A stretch of DNA of 33,244 nt from assembly GCA_020726105.1 (NCBI GenBank), contig DYTF01000002.1:1-33244 (forward strand), given 5' to 3'. Source of the stretch: Sulfurovum sp. (lineage in GTDB: Bacteria > Campylobacterota > Campylobacteria > Campylobacterales > Sulfurovaceae). Positions 3,890 to 15,170 of the stretch are shown one piece after another. The notes beneath the pieces were generated by a model that had not been told where the DNA came from, made no database searches, and saw only the letters and a program-made list of their open reading frames with translations. A program made the translations under genes and the position numbers. Position 1 is the stretch's first letter; the number at the start of each line of letters is the position of its first letter.

Positions 3890-4741
3890 TTGGAACTTGA
3901 ACAGGCTGTTGAATACTTTTCCATTTTAGGCGGTATGGCAAATGAGGTTGAGTTGGACTATTTTGACGATGTCTTTTCTATGGTAGAGTCCAATTTTGTA
4001 GACAATTTTTCAAAGTTCCAGCATCTGGTATCTCCCTCGTATCTTTTGGAAAGTCCTTATAAAGAGATACTTATGGCGGTGGCAAGAGGGGATGGGAAGC
4101 TTTACTCCGCATTGCGCAAAGCAAAACTGAGTGAGACGCTAGGAGAGCAAGTACTCCAAGAGTTGATAACTTTGGGTGTACTACAAGTAGAGATTTCAAG
4201 AGAATCACCCCTGCGTATGCACGCCAAACACAAATTAAGAAAAGAACAACGCTCTTATCGTGTACAGGATAAACTTCGTTTTGTACAGCCTTTTATGCGT
4301 TTTTGGTTTGGGTTTGTGATGGTTTACGCAAAAGATTTGGCAGCAGGCAAGGGTGACGCCTTTATGCAGAATTTCAGGATGCACTATGAGCGATTGCGCT
4401 CTTTGGTCTATGAGCAGCTTTGTGATGCTTTGTTGGTGGAGCATTTTTCGGACATAAGCCCCATTTTGTCTAGCGGCAGTTACTGGAATGTGTATAGCGA
4501 GTTTGACATCCTTGCGGTCAATACACACAAAAAAATCATTTTGGGAGAATGTAAATACAAAGACCGAAAAGTCTGTAAGAATGAACTCTCTAAACTCAAA
4601 GCCAAAGCAGAACAATCTGGCATACCCGTAGATGTCTATGCACTTTTTTCAAAGTCAGGGTTTTCCAATGAACTTTTGCAGACCCAGACTGAAGATCTGC
4701 TCTTGTTTGATTTGAATGATCTTAAACTGCTTGCTACTTAG
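3890..4741 (+). CDS. DUF234-type protein with PD-(D/E)XK nuclease-like motif; N-terminus probably extends upstream
   Basis: SSGSYWNVYSEFDILAVNTHKKIILGECKYKD resembles the PD-(D/E)XK core of DUF234 proteins; in-frame coding-like residues HFIKTAFKRFYRHHSYLELEQAVEYFSILGG precede the TTG at 3890 with no ATG. Confidence 0.65.
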   Translation: MELEQAVEYFSILGGMANEVELDYFDDVFSMVESNFVDNFSKFQHLVSPSYLLESPYKEILMAVARGDGKLYSALRKAKLSETLGEQVLQELITLGVLQVEISRESPLRMHAKHKLRKEQRSYRVQDKLRFVQPFMRFWFGFVMVYAKDLAAGKGDAFMQNFRMHYERLRSLVYEQLCDALLVEHFSDISPILSSGSYWNVYSEFDILAVNTHKKIILGECKYKDRKVCKNELSKLKAKAEQSGIPVDVYALFSKSGFSNELLQTQTEDLLLFDLNDLKLLAT

Positions 4742-7053
4742 CGCTTTGCGTCGTGGACTGTTTCTTCTAAAAAAATCTCTTCTTCATAGTGTTTGACGCC
4801 TTCTAGGAAACCTGAAATCCGTATCTCCTCATACACGATGCCATCAGGCACAGCTTTGGAGTGCAGTTGAACCGCACACTGTTTGTAGTTGGGCTCAAAG
4901 GATTTGGGGTCAAACTCAGCCAAGGTAATGGCGTTGATGAGCTGTTCATTGTAGTGAAAAGGAACAAAAACATTGCCTTCGCGCACTGTTTGACTCACTT
5001 TGACGATAACATCTTCCACTCGACCCCTTGAGCCTGAGAGTGCGATGCGGTCACCGCTTCCTACTAGGAGTCTGTGCGCATCATTGGGGTGCAGATCTAC
5101 CCATGCTTCGGGTGCCAGTGCATCGAGTATGCCGACTGTACCTGTTTTGGTTCTGGTATGAAACTGCTCTACGGTGCGCCCAGTGTTGAGCATCAGTGGC
5201 AGTGTTTTGGAAGTCATCTCAGACAGAGGCAACCAATCCACAGAGAGCAGGTTTGCTTTTCCATTTTCTGTTCGACATGGCATCTCTTTATCATACAGGC
5301 GTTTGGTGCCTTGGGGTGCGTCTGCATTACAAGGCCACTGAATGCCGCCGAGCGTTTCCATCTTTTCATACGACATTTCAGAGTAGTCGCAAAGTTGCCC
5401 TTTACTCACCCGTTTAATCTCTTCAAAGACATCTTTAGCACTTTTGAGGTCTTTAAAAAGCAGCTCATATTTTTCTTCAAAATACGCAGAAAATGCCAAG
5501 ATGATGTCAAGATCTGCTTTACTCTCTCCCAAAGGCTCTACGGCTTTTTTGGCAAGGTTGCAACGGCGCTCTGAATTGGTGTAACATCCCTCTTTTTCAC
5601 TCCATGTTGCTGCAGCAAAGACTACATCGGCTATTTGCGCTGTATCGGACATAAAGGCATCCTGTACGACCAAAATCTCCAGCTTTTTCAGTGCTTCACG
5701 CAGAGCATTTTGGTCGGGGTAACTCACCAGTGGATTGGTGGCTACCACCCAAAGGGCTTTGATCTCACCACGGTTTATGGCATCAATAATCTGCGGGTAC
5801 GCATAACCGCGTTTTTGGGGTATGAGATCAACGGGTACATTGATGAGATCTGCAAATGTTTGTCTATCCGCAGGAGAGGCATAGTTTCTGTAGCCGGGGA
5901 TGGAGGAGGTAAAGCCAAACTCACGGGTACCCATGGCGTTACACTGTCCTGTAATGGACATCGGTGAGGCACCTTCGCGCCCCACATTTCCCGTGATGAG
6001 TGCAAGGTTGCAGATGGCAGAGACAGTGTCGGTGCCGATACTGCTTTGATTGACGCCCATCGTCCATGCCGACATCACAGCGCCTGCAGAGGCGTAGATT
6101 TTTGCTAAGGTGTAAAGTTCTTTCACTTCGATGCCCGTGAGTTCTGCTACTTCTTGGGGCGGATAGTTGGCTAAGATGTGTTTTTTGAACTCCACATACC
6201 CGTTGGTACGCTCTTTGATGAAGGTCTCATCTTCCCAGCCTTGCTCAAGGATGATATAACACAGTCCGTTGATGAGTGCCAAGTCTGAACGCGGTTTGAG
6301 TGGCACAAAGATGTCTGCCATCTGTGCCGTTTTGGATTTACGCGGATCGATGACGATGATGGTTGGTTTTTTGCCTGTGACGGACTCATTTTTGGCGATG
6401 TGCAGTTTTAATATAGGATGATTATCCGCAATGTTTGCACCAATGAGCATGATGACATCCGCTTTTTCAAAATCTTCATAACAGCCTGTTGGCCCGTCGC
6501 TTCCAAAGGTTTGTTTGTAACCCATCACCGCAGATGCCATACAAAGCGTGGTGTTGCCGTCATAGTTACTGGTCTCAAGCCCAAGTTGGACAAACTTGCC
6601 TAAAGCATAAAACTCTTCAGTCAGCAGTTGCCCTGTTGAGATGACGGCTACCGAGCCTTTACCGTAGGTGGCTTGTATGCGCTTAAATTCATTTGCAGTG
6701 TGAGCGAAAGTCTCTTCCCAGCCTGCAGGTGTCAGCTGAGCATTTTTTCGTATGAGCGGTTTTTCTACGCGCGAGTTTGCATAGACCATTTGGTGTTCTG
6801 AGAGTCCTTTGGGGCAGAGTGTTCCTAAGTTGACTGGATGTAGAGGGTCACCTTTGGAGTACACCGCTTTGCCATCTTTCACCCCGATATACATTCCACA
6901 TCCCACACCACAGTATCCGCAGGTAGAGCGTACCCATTTGTCCGGTGCTTTGTCTTTGGCTACTTTTCCAAAGATGGGGTCATCCACTAGGGCGTATTTG
7001 TCTGCTTTGATGTCAAGTCCCAAAAAGGCTTTTGTTTTTTCTATAAAGTGCAT
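4738..7053 (-). CDS. nasA: Assimilatory nitrate reductase, molybdopterin catalytic subunit (NasA/NarB type)
   Basis: CGYCGVGCGMYIGVKDGK...GTLCPKG 4Fe-4S motif, molybdopterin domain throughout, C-terminal Mo-dinucleotide-binding region; no Tat signal; co-directional with nirA. Confidence 0.85.
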   Translation of the reverse strand: MHFIEKTKAFLGLDIKADKYALVDDPIFGKVAKDKAPDKWVRSTCGYCGVGCGMYIGVKDGKAVYSKGDPLHPVNLGTLCPKGLSEHQMVYANSRVEKPLIRKNAQLTPAGWEETFAHTANEFKRIQATYGKGSVAVISTGQLLTEEFYALGKFVQLGLETSNYDGNTTLCMASAVMGYKQTFGSDGPTGCYEDFEKADVIMLIGANIADNHPILKLHIAKNESVTGKKPTIIVIDPRKSKTAQMADIFVPLKPRSDLALINGLCYIILEQGWEDETFIKERTNGYVEFKKHILANYPPQEVAELTGIEVKELYTLAKIYASAGAVMSAWTMGVNQSSIGTDTVSAICNLALITGNVGREGASPMSITGQCNAMGTREFGFTSSIPGYRNYASPADRQTFADLINVPVDLIPQKRGYAYPQIIDAINRGEIKALWVVATNPLVSYPDQNALREALKKLEILVVQDAFMSDTAQIADVVFAAATWSEKEGCYTNSERRCNLAKKAVEPLGESKADLDIILAFSAYFEEKYELLFKDLKSAKDVFEEIKRVSKGQLCDYSEMSYEKMETLGGIQWPCNADAPQGTKRLYDKEMPCRTENGKANLLSVDWLPLSEMTSKTLPLMLNTGRTVEQFHTRTKTGTVGILDALAPEAWVDLHPNDAHRLLVGSGDRIALSGSRGRVEDVIVKVSQTVREGNVFVPFHYNEQLINAITLAEFDPKSFEPNYKQCAVQLHSKAVPDGIVYEEIRISGFLEGVKHYEEEIFLEETVHDAKR

Positions 7054-7065
7054 CTTATTTTCCTT

Positions 7066-8673
7066 CTAGCCTCTTTGGTTTCCGGCAAAAAAGTTGCCTG
7101 CCAAGCCCAAAGGCACTACGGTTCTGTAAAACAAGTACCTTCCGCTCAGCTCAGACACAAAAGCACCTAGAGTTGCGAGTACCACGCTAATCATCGCCCA
7201 TCCTACTAAGCCGCTGGCTGTGAACAAAAGTCCCAAGAGAGGCAGGGCTAATGCAAAGATTGCCAAAGAATAGACTCTCAATTTCTTTACTGTAGCAAAA
7301 TGTTCCTGAAGTAGGATACGGCTTCGGTTGTATTGGTAGTAAAGTGGATCCTCTTTGTCTAGGTTTTGATAGAACATCATCTCTTCAAAAATGACCAATG
7401 TCTGAGCCATACCCGCTAGGAGTGTAATCGCTAAAAGCACCATCGCACCCTGCGTGCCATTGTAGGCAAGCAGGACGGAGGTGATGAGTAAAAAGCCGAC
7501 ATAGCCTGTGCCAAAGAATTTTTTATTGGTTGAGCTTCTGTCCCAACTCGGACGGGCTTTGATGCGGTAAATCATCGACTGGGCGTAGATGCCATAGATG
7601 CCTACAGCTAAGGTTACTGCTTCAAGTAAAAGTAATCCTATGCCTGTGATGTGTACAAAATAGAGCAGGGCAACCACAGAAACTAATCCTGTAAATGCAC
7701 CCAGGGCTATGGCTTCACGGCTTAACCATGAGGTCCTCCAGTTTTTCATCGCTTTGAGCGCCATGATGGGTCTGCCTAGATGCAGCGCAGAAAGTGGTAA
7801 ACCAATCGCTGCAGGGATGAAAGCCAAAAGTGCCATGGTAAGGTTTGGCTGAGGAAGATTGAACCCTAAAGCAAAGAGCAACTCACCCAAAAAGAGTGCC
7901 AAAAATGCCCCCAGACTCACTTGGGTAAGCACGGTCATAAAAACAAGAGGCAGTTCTGCATGTGCAGGTTTAAGTAGATGCTCATCTGCTACTCTGAGTG
8001 TTTCTCCTTCTTTTAGTTTTGGCAGTGTATAGCGTGTAGTGGGTTTAGTGATAGCAACATCTGGCAAGTGTGGCGCAACACCTTCTTTGCTCATATCTTC
8101 TTCTAGCCATTGTTTGACATTAAAAACCTCTATCTCTATGGCATTGCTGGGACAGGCTTGTACGCAGGCTGGGCTTTGTCCGAGTTCGAGTTTATCGGCA
8201 CACATGTGACATTTGGTCACGATGCCACGATCAGCGTTAAAAGTTGGCACTTCATAAGGGCAATTCCAGGTACAGTATTGGCATCCGATACAGCTAGGGT
8301 CATCATGCCAAACGATGCCGTTATCAAACTTCACATAAGACTCTGTAGGACAGCCTATGAGACAGGCAGGCTCGATGCAGTGGTTACAGCTCATGGAGTT
8401 AAAGAGTTGAAGTGTATCGGGGAATGCGCCCATCTCCATCTCTCCTACTCTACGCCATTTGATTTCATCAGGGTTTGCATTTTGTTCGTTGCAGGCCACT
8501 TCACAGCAGTGACAGCCCACACAAGCGGTCGCATCAAAGTGAAAACGGTACTGTTCTCCTTCGTTTAACACAGGCAAATCAATCGAATAATTGCCACACT
8601 GCATCCCTGTGTTGGTCTTATGGTTGATAAAATCAGCCAAAGGCGTGTGCTCGCTCAGAGCTTGGACAGCCAT
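7066..8673 (-). CDS. Fused DmsB-like 4x[4Fe-4S] ferredoxin + DmsC-like membrane anchor
   Basis: Four Cys clusters (CVGCHCCEVAC, CNHCIEPACLIGC, CIGCQYCTWNC, CHMCADKL..ACVQAC), then a hydrophobic DmsC-like region (SWLSREAIALGAF, SAL..LGRP); start overlaps nirA stop (TAATG). Confidence 0.85.
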   Translation of the reverse strand: MAVQALSEHTPLADFINHKTNTGMQCGNYSIDLPVLNEGEQYRFHFDATACVGCHCCEVACNEQNANPDEIKWRRVGEMEMGAFPDTLQLFNSMSCNHCIEPACLIGCPTESYVKFDNGIVWHDDPSCIGCQYCTWNCPYEVPTFNADRGIVTKCHMCADKLELGQSPACVQACPSNAIEIEVFNVKQWLEEDMSKEGVAPHLPDVAITKPTTRYTLPKLKEGETLRVADEHLLKPAHAELPLVFMTVLTQVSLGAFLALFLGELLFALGFNLPQPNLTMALLAFIPAAIGLPLSALHLGRPIMALKAMKNWRTSWLSREAIALGAFTGLVSVVALLYFVHITGIGLLLLEAVTLAVGIYGIYAQSMIYRIKARPSWDRSSTNKKFFGTGYVGFLLITSVLLAYNGTQGAMVLLAITLLAGMAQTLVIFEEMMFYQNLDKEDPLYYQYNRSRILLQEHFATVKKLRVYSLAIFALALPLLGLLFTASGLVGWAMISVVLATLGAFVSELSGRYLFYRTVVPLGLAGNFFAGNQRG

Positions 8674-10619
8674 TATGCTATTTCCTTTAAGGCTACAAGC
8701 AGTTCAGAAAAAACCGCTACACGCTCTTTTTTGTTTTCATGGGTCATGTTGTAGAGTATCTCAGAGAGTTTGAGCGGGACTTTCGGGTTGAGTTTGCTGA
8801 CCGTGTCTCTTTTGATGCTGGTGGGTTTAAGCATATTGGGTGAGAGTTCCACCACCGATTCAAAGCGTTTTTCACCGGTGAGCAGTTTGTAAAGCTTGAG
8901 TCCAAAACCAAAGAGTTCATACTCTTCGCGTCTGGAGCTTTTGGGTTCACTTTCAAGTTCCAGTGTGACAGCAAGACCCAGTTTCTCATGGAGTACATAG
9001 TTGATTTTTGTATAAAATGCCAAAGCCTGAAAACTATAGTTTCGCGATAAAAAGCGATCATCAAACATCTCGTATGTTTCACCTCTAAGCTTATGTGTCG
9101 CGTAGGTTTGAAGCAGGTACTTGACATGATGTTTGGCTTCGGTAATGGGTAGGGCTTTATGTAGGGTGTGGGCCTCTTTTGCTTCGCGTGTGATTTTGCC
9201 TCCCACAAAGATATGTACGCCATCCACCTTCTTACCTTCAGTATCTTTTGCGATGCACCCTTCAAACCCGATGTCTGCTATGCCATGTACACCACACCCT
9301 TTGGGGCATGCTGACCAGTTCATGCGTACCGATGCATTGGGTATGGCAACCTCGGAGCTGAGGAAATGTGCCATTTCTATGGCATCGGGTTTGTTGGGTA
9401 TGACCCCAAAACTGCAAGTTGCCGTTCCTGCACAGGCTATCATGTCGCTGAAGTAGAGGTTGTTGTAGGCTGCATAGTGTTTCACAACAGGGGCAGACTC
9501 AAAGCCCTCAAGTGCTTCTTTGGCGATGGATGGGATGTAGACATTTTGATCATAGGTGAGTCTAAGCTCTCCTTGGGCAAATGTTTTTGCGGCATTGGCT
9601 ACATCTATCATGTGGCTACCACTAAAGATGCCTGAGGGTACGATGAGTTTGTAGGCAAAGGTGCCGTCACGACCCAAAACTTTGTTTGAACCCAGTGCGA
9701 TAGACTGCGACTGTACTAGAGTCGCTCCTGCTGAGGTAAAATCACAGGCTGCTTCAGACTTAACTCCTTGGATGAAGGCGTCCATCCCCACATCATTCAG
9801 CAGATAGACCAAACGGTTTTTGTTGCGGTTGTCTCGGTAGCCGTAGGTTTTAAAAACACTCAAGAGTGATTTGAAAAACAGCGGAACTTGGGTGATAGTG
9901 ACAAAGAGATTGGCATCTTGTGCCTGCATCCCCACACGCGCACCCAAGTAGACATTGAAGCCAAAGATACCCTCTTTTTGTGCCAATACAAAACAGCAGT
10001 CGTGACCGAAAATATTGCAAGAGTTTGAGAGTGAACCCAGTATGCCGGTGTTAAATTTACGCGGAAGTACGGAAATCCATTCGGGGTTTTCGCCAAATAC
10101 TTCTTGTAGTGCATCGATGATAGGTTTAGTAGGTATGACATTATCGTAAGCGATGCCATCAAGGGGGTCTGTGACGATGTTTCGCGGATTGTCCACACCG
10201 GTTTGAAAGGTAGAGATGCCGACTGTTTTGAGCTCTCTGAGGACTTTGGCGATGTTTTCTATCTTGAGATAACGCAGTTCAACCTGCATCCGTGTCGTGA
10301 GGTCGATGTAGTCATTGCCATACTTTTGTGCTACTTCACCGATGCGTACAGCCTGTTCATAGTTGAGCTGTCCTGCTGGAATACGCACACGCAACATAAA
10401 GTCTTCGCCTTTGTCAAAAAGACCAAAACATTTTAAAAAGTAAGCAGAGTCTTCTGCGGCAAGCTTTTCATATCCGCCTGCAGCGATTTCGTCCAGTGTA
10501 TCGTAGACATCCATGGGGCTTTTGAGTGCTTTGGTGTTCTCTACTTTATTGAGTTTGGTGTTTCGTGCCTGAGCAGCTTTTTCTAAGATCTGTGTCATGG
10601 TTCTATTCACCTTCTTCAT
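8673..10619 (-). CDS. nirA: NirA-type siroheme nitrite (or sulfite) reductase with kinase-C-lobe-like C-terminal extension
   Basis: Siroheme/4Fe-4S motif ACAGTATCSFGV...NWSACPKGCGVHGIADIGFEG; RMQVELRYLKIENI; ~85-aa tail EEYELFGFGLKLYKLLTG...SKLNPKVPLKLSEILYNM. Actual start may be the internal MTQIL. Confidence 0.85.
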   Translation of the reverse strand: MKKVNRTMTQILEKAAQARNTKLNKVENTKALKSPMDVYDTLDEIAAGGYEKLAAEDSAYFLKCFGLFDKGEDFMLRVRIPAGQLNYEQAVRIGEVAQKYGNDYIDLTTRMQVELRYLKIENIAKVLRELKTVGISTFQTGVDNPRNIVTDPLDGIAYDNVIPTKPIIDALQEVFGENPEWISVLPRKFNTGILGSLSNSCNIFGHDCCFVLAQKEGIFGFNVYLGARVGMQAQDANLFVTITQVPLFFKSLLSVFKTYGYRDNRNKNRLVYLLNDVGMDAFIQGVKSEAACDFTSAGATLVQSQSIALGSNKVLGRDGTFAYKLIVPSGIFSGSHMIDVANAAKTFAQGELRLTYDQNVYIPSIAKEALEGFESAPVVKHYAAYNNLYFSDMIACAGTATCSFGVIPNKPDAIEMAHFLSSEVAIPNASVRMNWSACPKGCGVHGIADIGFEGCIAKDTEGKKVDGVHIFVGGKITREAKEAHTLHKALPITEAKHHVKYLLQTYATHKLRGETYEMFDDRFLSRNYSFQALAFYTKINYVLHEKLGLAVTLELESEPKSSRREEYELFGFGLKLYKLLTGEKRFESVVELSPNMLKPTSIKRDTVSKLNPKVPLKLSEILYNMTHENKKERVAVFSELLVALKEIA

Positions 10620-10825: not shown

Positions 10826-12106
10826 ATGGCAGGTTTTAAAGCTTTAAAGGGACAGGGACACGCACCGACGCTGTTCATGGCTTTTTTGTATTTTGATATG
10901 AGTTTTATGGTGTGGACGATGTTGGGTCCGTTGGCAACTGAGATTTCTGAAGCCTTGGCAGCAACGGGGTTTATGATCACTGAAGGGCAAAAGGCAACTT
11001 TGCTCTCTTTGCCGATACTTTCAGGTGCATTTTTAAGAATCGTACTGGGGTTTGGTGTTGATAAATTTGGGGCAAAAGCAACCGCACTGGTCGCTCAGGC
11101 TATCGTTATCGCTGCACTTTTGAGTGCCTATATGATGGGAGAGACCATCACTTACAATGCACTGCTGCTCATTGCACTGGGGCTAGGGTTTGCAGGTGCA
11201 TCTTTTGCGGTGGCGCTTCCGCAGGCTGGACAGTGGTATCCGCCAAAGTCCCAAGGAACGGTTCTGGGACTTGCAGGCGCAGGGAACATCGGTGTGGTTA
11301 TCGACTTTTTGTTTGCACCCAAAATAGCAGAACTGTGGGGCTGGCAATCGGTATTTTTAGTGGGCGCAGTGATGGCGATAGCGGTATTTGTCGCGTATCT
11401 TTTCTTGGCAAAAAATGCACCCGAATCTATCTACAAAGCAAGACCTAAAAAGCTTATCGATTATGCCAAACTGCTTAAAGATAAAGACACTTGGTGGTTT
11501 AACCTCTTTTATGCGGTGAGTTTTGGCGGTTTTGTCGGCTTTGCAGGCTATATGCAAGTCTATTTGATGAATGTGTATCAAGCAGATATGAGTGCCATCG
11601 GACTAGACATTTTAGATGAAGCCAATGTCAAAGTTGTTGCAGGGTATTTTGGTGCGCTGTGTATCTTTGCAGGTGCAGTGCTTAGACCCGTAGGCGGAGC
11701 CATAGCAGATAAAATGGGCGGGGTCAAGTCACTTTACATCTTCTTTGGAAGTGTCACTGCTTTGGCGATGCTCAATGCCACTGTCTCCCTTCCCTTTGGC
11801 GCGGCTATCGTGGTACTTTTTCTCATCATGGCAAATCTTGGCATGGCAAACGGGGCAGTCTTTCAACTGGTGCCGCAGCGTTTTGGCAAAGATATCGGCA
11901 TTATGACAGGTATCATCGGTGCAGCAGGTGGTCTTGGCGGAACGGCACTCATCAAGACATTTGGATGGTCAAAAGGTGCATTTGACGGTTATGGGGCAGG
12001 GTTTATGATTGTTGCGGCGGTTGTGTTGGTGGCTATCATGGGGATTTCACTGGTAAAAACACGCTGGAGAACTACATGGGGTGTTCACTCAGGCGGCATC
12101 ATTTGA
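10826..12106 (+). CDS. narK: Nitrate/nitrite MFS transporter (NNP family)
   Basis: FDMSFMVWTMLGPLATEIS, LLSLPILSGAFLRIVLGFGVDKFGAK, NLGMANGAVFQLVPQRFGKDIGIMTGIIGAAGGLGG nitrate signature regions; divergent from nirA. Confidence 0.9.
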   Translation: MAGFKALKGQGHAPTLFMAFLYFDMSFMVWTMLGPLATEISEALAATGFMITEGQKATLLSLPILSGAFLRIVLGFGVDKFGAKATALVAQAIVIAALLSAYMMGETITYNALLLIALGLGFAGASFAVALPQAGQWYPPKSQGTVLGLAGAGNIGVVIDFLFAPKIAELWGWQSVFLVGAVMAIAVFVAYLFLAKNAPESIYKARPKKLIDYAKLLKDKDTWWFNLFYAVSFGGFVGFAGYMQVYLMNVYQADMSAIGLDILDEANVKVVAGYFGALCIFAGAVLRPVGGAIADKMGGVKSLYIFFGSVTALAMLNATVSLPFGAAIVVLFLIMANLGMANGAVFQLVPQRFGKDIGIMTGIIGAAGGLGGTALIKTFGWSKGAFDGYGAGFMIVAAVVLVAIMGISLVKTRWRTTWGVHSGGII

Positions 12107-12116
12107 TGTGCAGATG

Positions 12117-13388
12117 CTAGAGATTGAACCCTAGCATCTGACCAAAGAGTTTGTCTTCGGTGAGTCTCATCTTCGCTGATTGCATGAGGTTGTTTTTTTC
12201 ATAATACGCCACAAGCTCCTGCGCATCCTGTCCTGACATCATCGCTTGATAATACAGAGCAGACAATACTTCTTGCTCATTGACAACGACATTTTCTTTT
12301 ATCGCCAAAGCTTCCACGATGAGTGCAAGCTTAATGCTACTTTGAGCCGCTTCTTTTACACTCTCTCTGAGCGCATGAAAAAGTGCTTTGTCCTCTTTGT
12401 AACGAGTCTGCTCTGCTGTATCCATCTGCTGGAGTGCTTCAAAACTTTTGGCATCTATCTCCTGCTCGACGACATTTTGAGGCAGGGTAAAAGAAAACAG
12501 TTTGAGCAGTCCTTGCGTAAGTTTGGGTTTAAGCTCCTCATAATAGCGCTGTGTCAAAACATCTGAGGTGATTTGATCGGCTAGTTTACCTTTGAGTGTT
12601 TCAAGCGTGGCAGTGGCGTCATTGAGTATTTTTTGTCCAAAGGCATCGTTCAGCTCAAGCGGCTTTTGTTCTTGTATCTCATGTAGTTTGACTTTAAACT
12701 GTGTCTCTTTTCCTGCCAAATCTGCAGACTGATACTGGGAAGGAAAAGTAACAGAGATGGTTTTTTCTTCGCCATAGCCCATGCCGATGAGCTGTTCTTC
12801 AAACCCTGGTATAAAGGAGTTTGAACCTATTTTGAGATTAAATTTCTCAGCTGCGCCCCCTTCAAAAGCAACACCGTCCAAAAACCCTTCAAAGTCTATG
12901 ACACACACATCATCAAACATCGCGGCTCTTGGTTTGGCTATGGCAGTAAATGGTGCTTGTTGTGTCGCCATCTCAAGCAGTTTGGCTTCTACTTTTTGAG
13001 GGTCTGCTATGGGTTTTTCGTACGCAGGTATAGCAGCTTTATAGTTGATAGAAGTATCAACAAAAGGGCTTGTGGAGAGTAGTATCTCAAGATAGATGCC
13101 CACCTCTTGCTTTTCATATTTTCTAAATCCCGGTTGTCCTAAGATGCTCTCGACATCCACAGCAGCCTCTTTGAGACCTTCTTGGATAAATGCTTTGAGT
13201 ATCAAGCTTGCCGCTTCTTCCTCGAACTGTTCATCGTTTATCTGTGTAGGTTCGTTATCTGAGGGCTGCGCAGGTGTTTTTGCGGCTTGTTCTTTGAGCT
13301 CTGAGGCCTTTTGTTGGGTGAGTGTATCTTCGATTGTACCGATGAGAATCATATTGATATCATCTATTTTTTCAACGCGTATGTTCAC
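12117..13388 (-). CDS. tig: Trigger factor-like protein (PPIase + C-terminal domain) lacking the canonical ribosome-docking loop
   Basis: FKBP-like DDVCVIDFEGFLDGVAFEGGAAEKFNLKIGSNSFIPGFEEQLIGM; TF C-domain; the GFRxGxxP region is replaced by KTPAQPSDNEPTQINDEQFEEEA. Confidence 0.75.
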   Translation of the reverse strand: MNIRVEKIDDINMILIGTIEDTLTQQKASELKEQAAKTPAQPSDNEPTQINDEQFEEEAASLILKAFIQEGLKEAAVDVESILGQPGFRKYEKQEVGIYLEILLSTSPFVDTSINYKAAIPAYEKPIADPQKVEAKLLEMATQQAPFTAIAKPRAAMFDDVCVIDFEGFLDGVAFEGGAAEKFNLKIGSNSFIPGFEEQLIGMGYGEEKTISVTFPSQYQSADLAGKETQFKVKLHEIQEQKPLELNDAFGQKILNDATATLETLKGKLADQITSDVLTQRYYEELKPKLTQGLLKLFSFTLPQNVVEQEIDAKSFEALQQMDTAEQTRYKEDKALFHALRESVKEAAQSSIKLALIVEALAIKENVVVNEQEVLSALYYQAMMSGQDAQELVAYYEKNNLMQSAKMRLTEDKLFGQMLGFNL

Positions 13389-13461: not shown

Positions 13462-13529
13462 AGCAGATGGGGTGCGGGGGAATTTTCTCAAACATGGTTA
13501 TAATATTTCACATCAAACAAAGGCTTGGT

Positions 13530-15170
13530 ATGGCATATCAAAACATAGAAACATCGGGTTTTATGCTTGCAAAAGGCAAACATCTCAAAGGTGATGACTT
13601 TTTTGAAGTCAAAGTGATGGAAAATCTAACCGTAGCAGTGTTATGTGATGGCGTAGGGTCTGCACTACAAGGAGCGCAAGCGGCATCTCACACCGTCAGT
13701 TTTCTTATCAATGCACTCAAAAACAGACCTAAAAGCTGGACGATGGAAAAATCCATCAAACACTTTATAACAACTATCAACAGAGTGCTCTATCTGGAAT
13801 CCATGACACAGTACGGACGCCAAGAACTGGTCACCACACTGGCGTTGGTCGTCATAGAAGGTGACAGACTCTATGGTGCCAATGTGGGTGACAGTCGTAT
13901 CTACTTGAAGCGAAGAGACGAAGAGGCTATGTTAACCCAGCTTTCAAATGATCATGTAATGCAAGAAGAGGGCATGAGCAATGTTTTGACGATGGCTATC
14001 GGGTTAGAAGAACATGTTTCGCCGTACTATTTTGAAAACAATCTTTTAGCGCAAGACCAGATACTACTGTGCAGTGATGGACTCTACAACGAATTATCTT
14101 GGAAAGAGCTGTCTGATGGCATCGGTATGGGTGCATCGTATTTGGTGAAAAAAGCAAGTAAATCGCACCAAGATAATCTTCCTGATGATACCTCTGCGGT
14201 GGTCATCGAGATCAAAGAAGTAGACCCCAGACTCAAACTCAAACAGAGCAATCTGCTCGTAAAATCACAGTATGAAGCACAAGAGACCATAGACGGATAC
14301 ACCTTACTTAAACCGCTCATACAAAACGAACGCACCTGGCTGTGCGAAAAAAACGGTCTGCAGTATGTTATCAAGTTTTCTCCCTATGAGACACTTGAAG
14401 ATGAAGTCTTGCTTGATTTGTTTGTGAAAGAAGCGTGGATGGCAAAAAGACTCAAAGCAGGCTTTTTCCCTAAAGCCGTCATACCCAAAAACCGTACCCA
14501 GCGGTATTATGTGATGAGTTTCATCGAAGGGGTGACGCTCAAAGCGCATACTGCCAAAAAACCGCTTTCTGTGGATTTGGGCATCGAACTAGGGATATTT
14601 TTACTGAAGATGTCACAGTTTTTGATTAAGTATGACCTTGTGCATGGTGACATTAAACCTGAAAATATTATGCTCACGCAGCGCAGAGGAAAAACTGTTT
14701 TTAAAATGGTTGATTTTGGCAGTATCACCGAGGCATATGCGAACATCTCACGCTCAGGGACACCCACCTACCTTGCACCTGAGCGTTTCAGGCAAGAACC
14801 TATTAACGAACAAACCGAGATTTACGCCATAGGTGTCACCCTTTATGAAGCCCTGACGCAGAAATACCCATTTGGCGAGATAGAACCTTTCCAAAACCCG
14901 TCGTTTGATCGAAAAATAAAAGCACCCTCTAAGCTCAACCCCAACATCCCCACATGGCTAGAAAGCATCATGCTAAGAGCCTTAGAGCCCGACACCGACA
15001 AACGCTATCGCAACTACTCTTTGATGCAGTACGAACTCACTCATCCCAGCAATGTCAAGCCGTATTTTGACAAACACGCTTCTGTCTTTGAAAGAAATCC
15101 ACTCCTCGTCTGCCGCATCGGTTTTGTGGTGATGTTGGTGTTAAATTTTGTTCAGATGGTTTGGTTTTAG
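13530..15170 (+). CDS. Bifunctional PP2C phosphatase / Ser-Thr protein kinase with C-terminal TM helix
   Basis: PP2C motifs (LCDGVGSALQGAQAA, GDSRIYL, LLCSDGL, DDTSAVVIE); kinase motifs (YVIKFSP, HGDIKPENIM, DFGS, APERF, EIYAIGVTLYEALT); C-terminal VCRIGFVVMLVLNFVQMVWF. Start moved to the internal ATG at 13530. Confidence 0.9.
   Translation: MAYQNIETSGFMLAKGKHLKGDDFFEVKVMENLTVAVLCDGVGSALQGAQAASHTVSFLINALKNRPKSWTMEKSIKHFITTINRVLYLESMTQYGRQELVTTLALVVIEGDRLYGANVGDSRIYLKRRDEEAMLTQLSNDHVMQEEGMSNVLTMAIGLEEHVSPYYFENNLLAQDQILLCSDGLYNELSWKELSDGIGMGASYLVKKASKSHQDNLPDDTSAVVIEIKEVDPRLKLKQSNLLVKSQYEAQETIDGYTLLKPLIQNERTWLCEKNGLQYVIKFSPYETLEDEVLLDLFVKEAWMAKRLKAGFFPKAVIPKNRTQRYYVMSFIEGVTLKAHTAKKPLSVDLGIELGIFLLKMSQFLIKYDLVHGDIKPENIMLTQRRGKTVFKMVDFGSITEAYANISRSGTPTYLAPERFRQEPINEQTEIYAIGVTLYEALTQKYPFGEIEPFQNPSFDRKIKAPSKLNPNIPTWLESIMLRALEPDTDKRYRNYSLMQYELTHPSNVKPYFDKHASVFERNPLLVCRIGFVVMLVLNFVQMVWF

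Follow-up and report, generated by a model that had tools for sequence, protein, structure and literature searches.

The siroheme nitrite reductase NirA encoded in a 33,244-nucleotide stretch of a Sulfurovum sp. genome (contig DYTF01000002.1, hereafter the window) carries a C-terminal extension of approximately 120 residues, starting at about residue 526, whose last ~84 residues are almost certainly homologous to the helices αF to αI of the Ser/Thr protein kinase C-lobe. A bifunctional PP2C-phosphatase/Ser-Thr kinase, referred to below as type A, is encoded in the same gene cluster. The positions of nirA and of its parts are as follows:

8673..10619, minus strand: nirA, siroheme nitrite reductase with an apparently kinase-derived C-terminal extension (648 aa; ORF, Pfam NIR_SIR and NIR_SIR_ferr)
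9045..10619, minus strand: NirA catalytic core, residues 1-525 (its end matches approximately the C-terminus of untailed orthologs)
8928..9044, minus strand: start of the extension, helix 530-546 and linker, residues 526-564 (helix 7-23 of the AlphaFold tail model)
8676..8927, minus strand: kinase C-lobe-like part αF-αI, residues 565-648 (profile, NCBIfam, hhalign and structure matches)
8916..8927, minus strand: E565-x-x-E568 motif (both Glu residues are shared by type A kinases and NirA tails)
8700..8711, minus strand: FSEL, residues 637-640 (near-invariant as F[ST]E in NirA tails, with YSE as the counterpart in type A kinases)

Up to residue ~525, NirA is a normal siroheme/4Fe-4S nitrite reductase, with two NIR_SIR_ferr and two NIR_SIR domains (Pfam, E 8.7e-30 and 1.1e-34) and with the cysteines of the 4Fe-4S/siroheme centre (C396, C402, C438 and C442) invariant among 50 aligned sequences. 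This core shares its fold, these cysteines and the NIR_SIR domains with the enzymes of spinach, tobacco (Nii3) and Mycobacterium tuberculosis (NirA). The AlphaFold model of the full-length protein is confident along the whole chain (pLDDT 91, pTM 0.89), and its comparison with the PDB returned nitrite and sulfite reductases first (44 matches at E < 0.001), the best matches being the tobacco and spinach nitrite reductases and M. tuberculosis NirA (TM 0.71 with the tobacco enzyme), with kinases as the second class behind them. The plant and mycobacterial structures align without the tail and leave the extension of the Sulfurovum protein unaccounted for; likewise, the alignment with NirA-like proteins found on plasmids of other phyla stops at residue ~526, or at 543 for one of them. 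From the narB and narK neighbours and from nitrite reductases being the best match, we infer that the substrate is nitrite, converted to ammonium, and not mainly sulfite.

The tail sequence reported in the initial annotation, which covered residues 559-648, was confirmed letter for letter, EEYELFGF beginning at residue 565 (base 8927). The extension as a whole begins further upstream, an additional helix and a linker preceding the kinase-like part from residue ~526 on. The AlphaFold model of the tail (mean pLDDT 89.6) contains helices at positions 7-23, 42-58, 83-87, 93-102 and 114-122. The first of them (NirA residues 530-546) resembles the kinase αE helix in position, for which only weak repeated secondary matches were obtained with the tail HMM (E 2.7-6.5), the local hhalign alignment stopping short of this helix. 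In the kinase-like part, E568 occupies the position of the universal αF Asp (PKA D220), while the αF Gly and the subdomain XI Arg of kinases are found in 30 and 27 of 32 tails, respectively. The alignment with kinases covers only the region after the APE motif, and the N-lobe, the ATP-binding Lys and the HRD, DFG and APE motifs are therefore all absent. As judged from these missing elements, and in line with the opinion of the initial annotation that the tail could not be a kinase, it is a C-lobe fragment incapable of phosphorylating, neither a kinase nor a complete pseudokinase.

The homology of the tail with kinases was recovered by sequence, profile and structure comparisons of unequal sensitivity. 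A one-to-one BLASTP alignment with the window kinase gave 33% identity over 58 aa (E 3e-5). The single tail sequence retrieved kinase models from NCBIfam (MAD6, 1.5e-5; PknB, 0.002; PglW, 0.004) and none from Pfam, where its sole match was a spurious one to ERCC3 (E 0.021). Using an HMM built from its relatives, E-values went down to 9e-18 against nas-type PP2C-kinases and reached 1.2e-13 (43 bits) against the window's own PP2C-kinase, and hhalign aligned tail and kinase from the αF helix to the end of αI with a probability of 97.9% (E 5.8e-13). All 60 matches listed for the tail profile in the PDB are kinases, the best (3.9e-8) being two PknB-type kinase chains. Searched at 1e-4 against all ORFs of ~90 loci, the tail HMM matched kinases, NirA tails and a single decayed piece of nirA, and nothing else. 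Finally, the 50 Foldseek matches listed for the tail model in the PDB are all kinases or kinase-fold domains, with probabilities up to 1.00, although the best E-value (0.014) and TM scores not exceeding 0.48 indicate that the structural match is partial. The resemblance to a kinase C-lobe noticed by eye in the initial annotation was hence borne out both by the profile searches and by the predicted fold. The silence of Pfam on the single sequence and the modest Foldseek E-value could be explained by a chance similarity among helical sequences; the matches of the tail HMM to nas-type kinases, the PDB profile search and hhalign in practice refute this explanation, and neither the kinase models retrieved from NCBIfam, nor the uniform kinase identity of the 50 listed structure matches, nor the rank of kinases as the next class for the full-length model fits with it, making it extremely improbable. 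An assembly error or a frameshift as source of the tail was ruled out, since the same frame is found in dozens of genomes, including that of a 98% relative.

The PP2C-kinase of the window is located downstream of narK:

13467..15170, plus strand: bifunctional PP2C-phosphatase/Ser-Thr kinase, type A (Pfam PP2C_2 1e-15, Pkinase 1.4e-21)
14808..15029, plus strand: kinase C-lobe αF-αI, homologous to the NirA tail (BLASTP, tail HMM, hhalign)

It displays the motifs HGDIKPEN (393), VDFGS (415) and LAPERF (436). HGD replaces HRD and a Glu replaces the universal αF Asp, both substitutions being typical of its type A relatives. The ORF opens at an ATG at 13467 and not at 13530 as first annotated, yet the latter position (M22) fits better with the starts of its relatives. 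A hydrophobic C-terminal segment, read from the sequence, may be a membrane anchor. The kinases of this nas-cluster family, named bifunctional protein-serine/threonine kinase/phosphatase at NCBI, share with the NirA tail the αF-αI helices, the gene cluster and the motifs ExxE[IL][FY] at αF, NP.[IV]P and [YF]SE. The tail differs from them by the absence of the PP2C domain, N-lobe, HRD, DFG, APE and membrane segment, and by its fusion to a metabolic enzyme.

Several observations bear on the kinase lineage from which the tail originated. At the αF Asp site, all 32 type A kinases and all 32 tails have Glu, against none of 21 other kinases, which all have Asp; three positions upstream (αF-3), Glu is present in 32/32 type A kinases, 31/32 tails and only 1/21 others. 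Both features are absent from type B, a second and divergent PP2C-kinase (26-28% identity). The relationship of the tail with the nearby PP2C-kinase proposed in the initial annotation is thus supported by two diagnostic residues held in common with the family of this kinase. The tail HMM also scored type A kinases (34-57 bits) above other Campylobacterota kinases (17-30 bits) and type B (4-22 bits). In a maximum likelihood tree built on an 89-column C-lobe alignment, tails, type A and type B were each monophyletic (UFBoot 96, 94 and 100, respectively); a pairing of the two kinase types was favoured by the best tree (UFBoot 86). The AU test accepted all three groupings (A+B, p 0.77; tail+A, p 0.36; tail+B, p 0.19). 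The diagnostic Glu residues and the ranking of profile scores favour descent from type A, and we consider it probable that the tail arose by duplication from a kinase of this type.

A sample of 398 Campylobacterota genomes (397 drawn and the window's own) contained 80 NirA orthologs, among which the tail is present in 64, absent in 13 (proteins of ~520-540 aa) and truncated in 3. A scan of genome contigs with the single tail sequence gave 21 loci, assigned to Sulfurovum, Nitratifractor, Campylobacteraceae or Campylobacterales. In the tree of the NirA core, tailed sequences stand on both sides of the root, whose position is uncertain. One clade with full support, next to the Sulfurovum group, unites fourteen untailed NirAs, namely 12 of the 13 as well as L044 and L056; the untailed L189 sits on a long branch whose placement is poor. 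The three truncated tails (L190, L191 and L192) come from one genus different from the Sulfurovum group and occupy two places in the tree; these proteins are cut just past the linking helix, which is kept, and the kinase-like part is gone. The simplest reading of this distribution is one ancient gain of the tail followed by at least two losses or truncations. In genome G029, where NirA was not detected, a 131-aa open frame (L177:2645-3037) matches the end of the NirA tail only (E ~2e-19). It was rejected as a free-standing tail gene owing to the missing nirA core and reads as the decayed 3' end of a nirA gene.

Within Sulfurovum, the median dN ratio between tail and core is 1.24, and omega, estimated on 11 unsaturated pairs, is ~0.09 for the tail versus 0.06 for the core. 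Moreover, invariant residues are present across 47 diverse tails. A rate of change close to that of the core, together with a low omega, indicates that the tail is not a decaying remnant, and on these substitution patterns its retention is attributed to purifying selection.

The gene cluster surrounding nirA in the window is composed, besides the kinase, of:

4738..7053, minus strand: NarB/NasC-type assimilatory nitrate reductase (NCBIfam NasC 8.6e-157, also Fdh-alpha)
7066..8673, minus strand: fused 4Fe-4S (DmsB-like)/DmsC-like membrane protein, between narB and nirA (Fer4_11 and DmsC)
10826..12106, plus strand: NarK-type nitrate/nitrite MFS transporter, divergent from nirA (TIGR00886 1.6e-68)
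12117..13388, strand opposite to narK and the kinase: trigger-factor-like/FKBP PPIase gene, between narK and the kinase

The protein encoded at 7066-8673 probably links assimilatory nitrate reduction to quinol as a source of electrons. The PPIase gene separates narK from the kinase in the window, these two genes being adjacent in most relatives. Over the ~90 loci, type A kinase genes are beside or near narK in most cases, and nirA directly abuts the kinase gene in one locus (L215). Among 20 genomes lacking type A that were searched, 18 also lack a NarK ortholog; the remaining two are G076, with a partial 44% match, and G081, where narK is at a contig edge and the neighbouring gene may thus be unassembled. 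Type B adjoins a formate/nitrite transporter near nirA (L041:9827-12605, L207:1679-6319 and L056:7886-13265), and in L041 and L207, which have neither type A nor NarK, type B and this transporter are directly upstream of nirA. In several lineages, the type B cluster takes the place of narK and type A. Similar kinases are encoded on Pseudomonadota plasmids beside a nitrate/nitrite transporter, nirBD and an MFS transporter, or a formate/nitrite transporter. Considering these narK, formate/nitrite transporter and plasmid contexts, the PP2C-kinase looks linked to the transporter first: at the genomic level it is most tightly associated with the nitrate/nitrite transporter and not with the NirA tail.

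The 64 tailed genomes encode type A in 54 cases, type B only in 6 and neither in 4, so that the tail is uncommon in the absence of a PP2C-kinase; the initial annotation had named the opposite, a tail common in organisms lacking the kinase, as an observation that would speak against its reading. Among the 16 genomes with an untailed or truncated NirA, type A occurs in 10 (8 untailed and 2 truncated) and no kinase in 6. Any PP2C-kinase (A or B) is therefore found in 60/64 tailed versus 10/16 untailed or truncated genomes (Fisher p 0.003, uncorrected for phylogeny), the association with type A alone having a Fisher p of 0.077, likewise uncorrected. A strict dependence between tail and kinase was rejected, as 10/64 tailed genomes lack type A and 10 type A genomes have an untailed or truncated NirA. 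Three genomes (G084, G277 and G377) have a well-conserved tail although neither a PP2C-kinase nor NarK was detected.

We tentatively propose, at somewhat below even probability, that the tail is a putative docking module in a transporter/PP2C-kinase/NirA pathway. A nas-linked PP2C-kinase gene was probably partly duplicated and fused to the 3' end of nirA, most likely once, in an ancestor of Campylobacterota NirA; the αF-αI fragment, domesticated in a non-catalytic form, has since been held by purifying selection. The tail could then place NirA in a transporter/PP2C-kinase assembly by offering the surface of a kinase C-lobe either to the kinase or to a partner common to both, which would couple nitrite reduction, physically or through regulation, to the uptake of nitrate/nitrite. 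This proposal is favoured by the kinase origin of the tail, the shared cluster, the excess co-occurrence and the known docking surface in kinases, since ordinary kinases dock substrates via this part of the C-lobe, as in the case of the PKR αG helix with eIF2alpha. The conserved tails of G084, G277 and G377, as well as the type A kinases found alongside eight untailed and two truncated NirAs, count against it. A more elaborate form, which we hold as doubtful, is that the C-lobe sub-fragment acts as a stand-alone interaction domain mimicking a kinase toward the transporter or the PP2C-kinase, NirA being joined to nitrite import at the membrane and switched by the kinase/phosphatase.

The main rival to the docking module is an intrinsic structural role, in which the tail would now contribute to NirA stability, to an oligomer interface or to the shaping of the electron-donor site, its link with the kinase being gone. 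The selection acting on the tail in genomes devoid of PP2C-kinase or NarK and the confidence of the full-length model over its whole length are consistent with such a role, whereas the plainly viable untailed orthologs of one well-supported clade, the plant and mycobacterial enzymes that align without the extension and the higher frequency of the PP2C-kinase with the tail make it possible at best, and on the doubtful side. The initial annotation had suggested that the tail might serve for docking or as a pseudosubstrate; in this view, the adjacent PP2C-kinase would bind it directly and phosphorylate or inhibit NirA. The shared ancestry of tail and kinase and their position in one cluster, up to the direct contact of the two genes in L215, agree with this idea, but it is unlikely in view of the tailed genomes lacking type A or both types and of a kinase that tracks the transporter more tightly than the tail. 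As for a passive relic of an ancient gene fusion, tolerated and functionless, it would account for a tail that can be lost, as illustrated by the stub of L190, L191 and L192 and by its lack in one clade; the near-core amino-acid rate with a low omega, the residues invariant across diverse tails and the maintenance of the tail in four fifths of the orthologs (64/80) render it very unlikely.

Both NirA and PP2C-kinases are known families, and to our knowledge no description exists of a bare C-lobe fragment fused to a nitrite reductase and retained in many families of a phylum. In the open-licence literature, no description was found of a kinase-like tail in NirA, nor of this PP2C-kinase in nitrate assimilation. 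The M. tuberculosis MviN domain and the KSR pseudokinases have a kinase fold without catalysis, plausibly used for binding, and the NirA tail may be used likewise. Kinase pseudo-domains usually retain both lobes, as do these known pseudokinases; unlike them, the tail is reduced to the lower helices of the C-lobe, fused to a central nitrogen enzyme and conserved over many families of a phylum.

For Sulfurovum and many of its relatives among the Campylobacterota, these results suggest that nitrogen uptake is connected with control by phosphorylation in a way not described so far, which the existence of both tailed and untailed relatives would make directly testable. If the tail mimics a kinase, it would reveal a layer of control of nitrogen assimilation not described in Campylobacterota; if it is a docking module, it would provide an entry point to the role of the transporter-adjacent PP2C-kinase in both Campylobacterota and Pseudomonadota.
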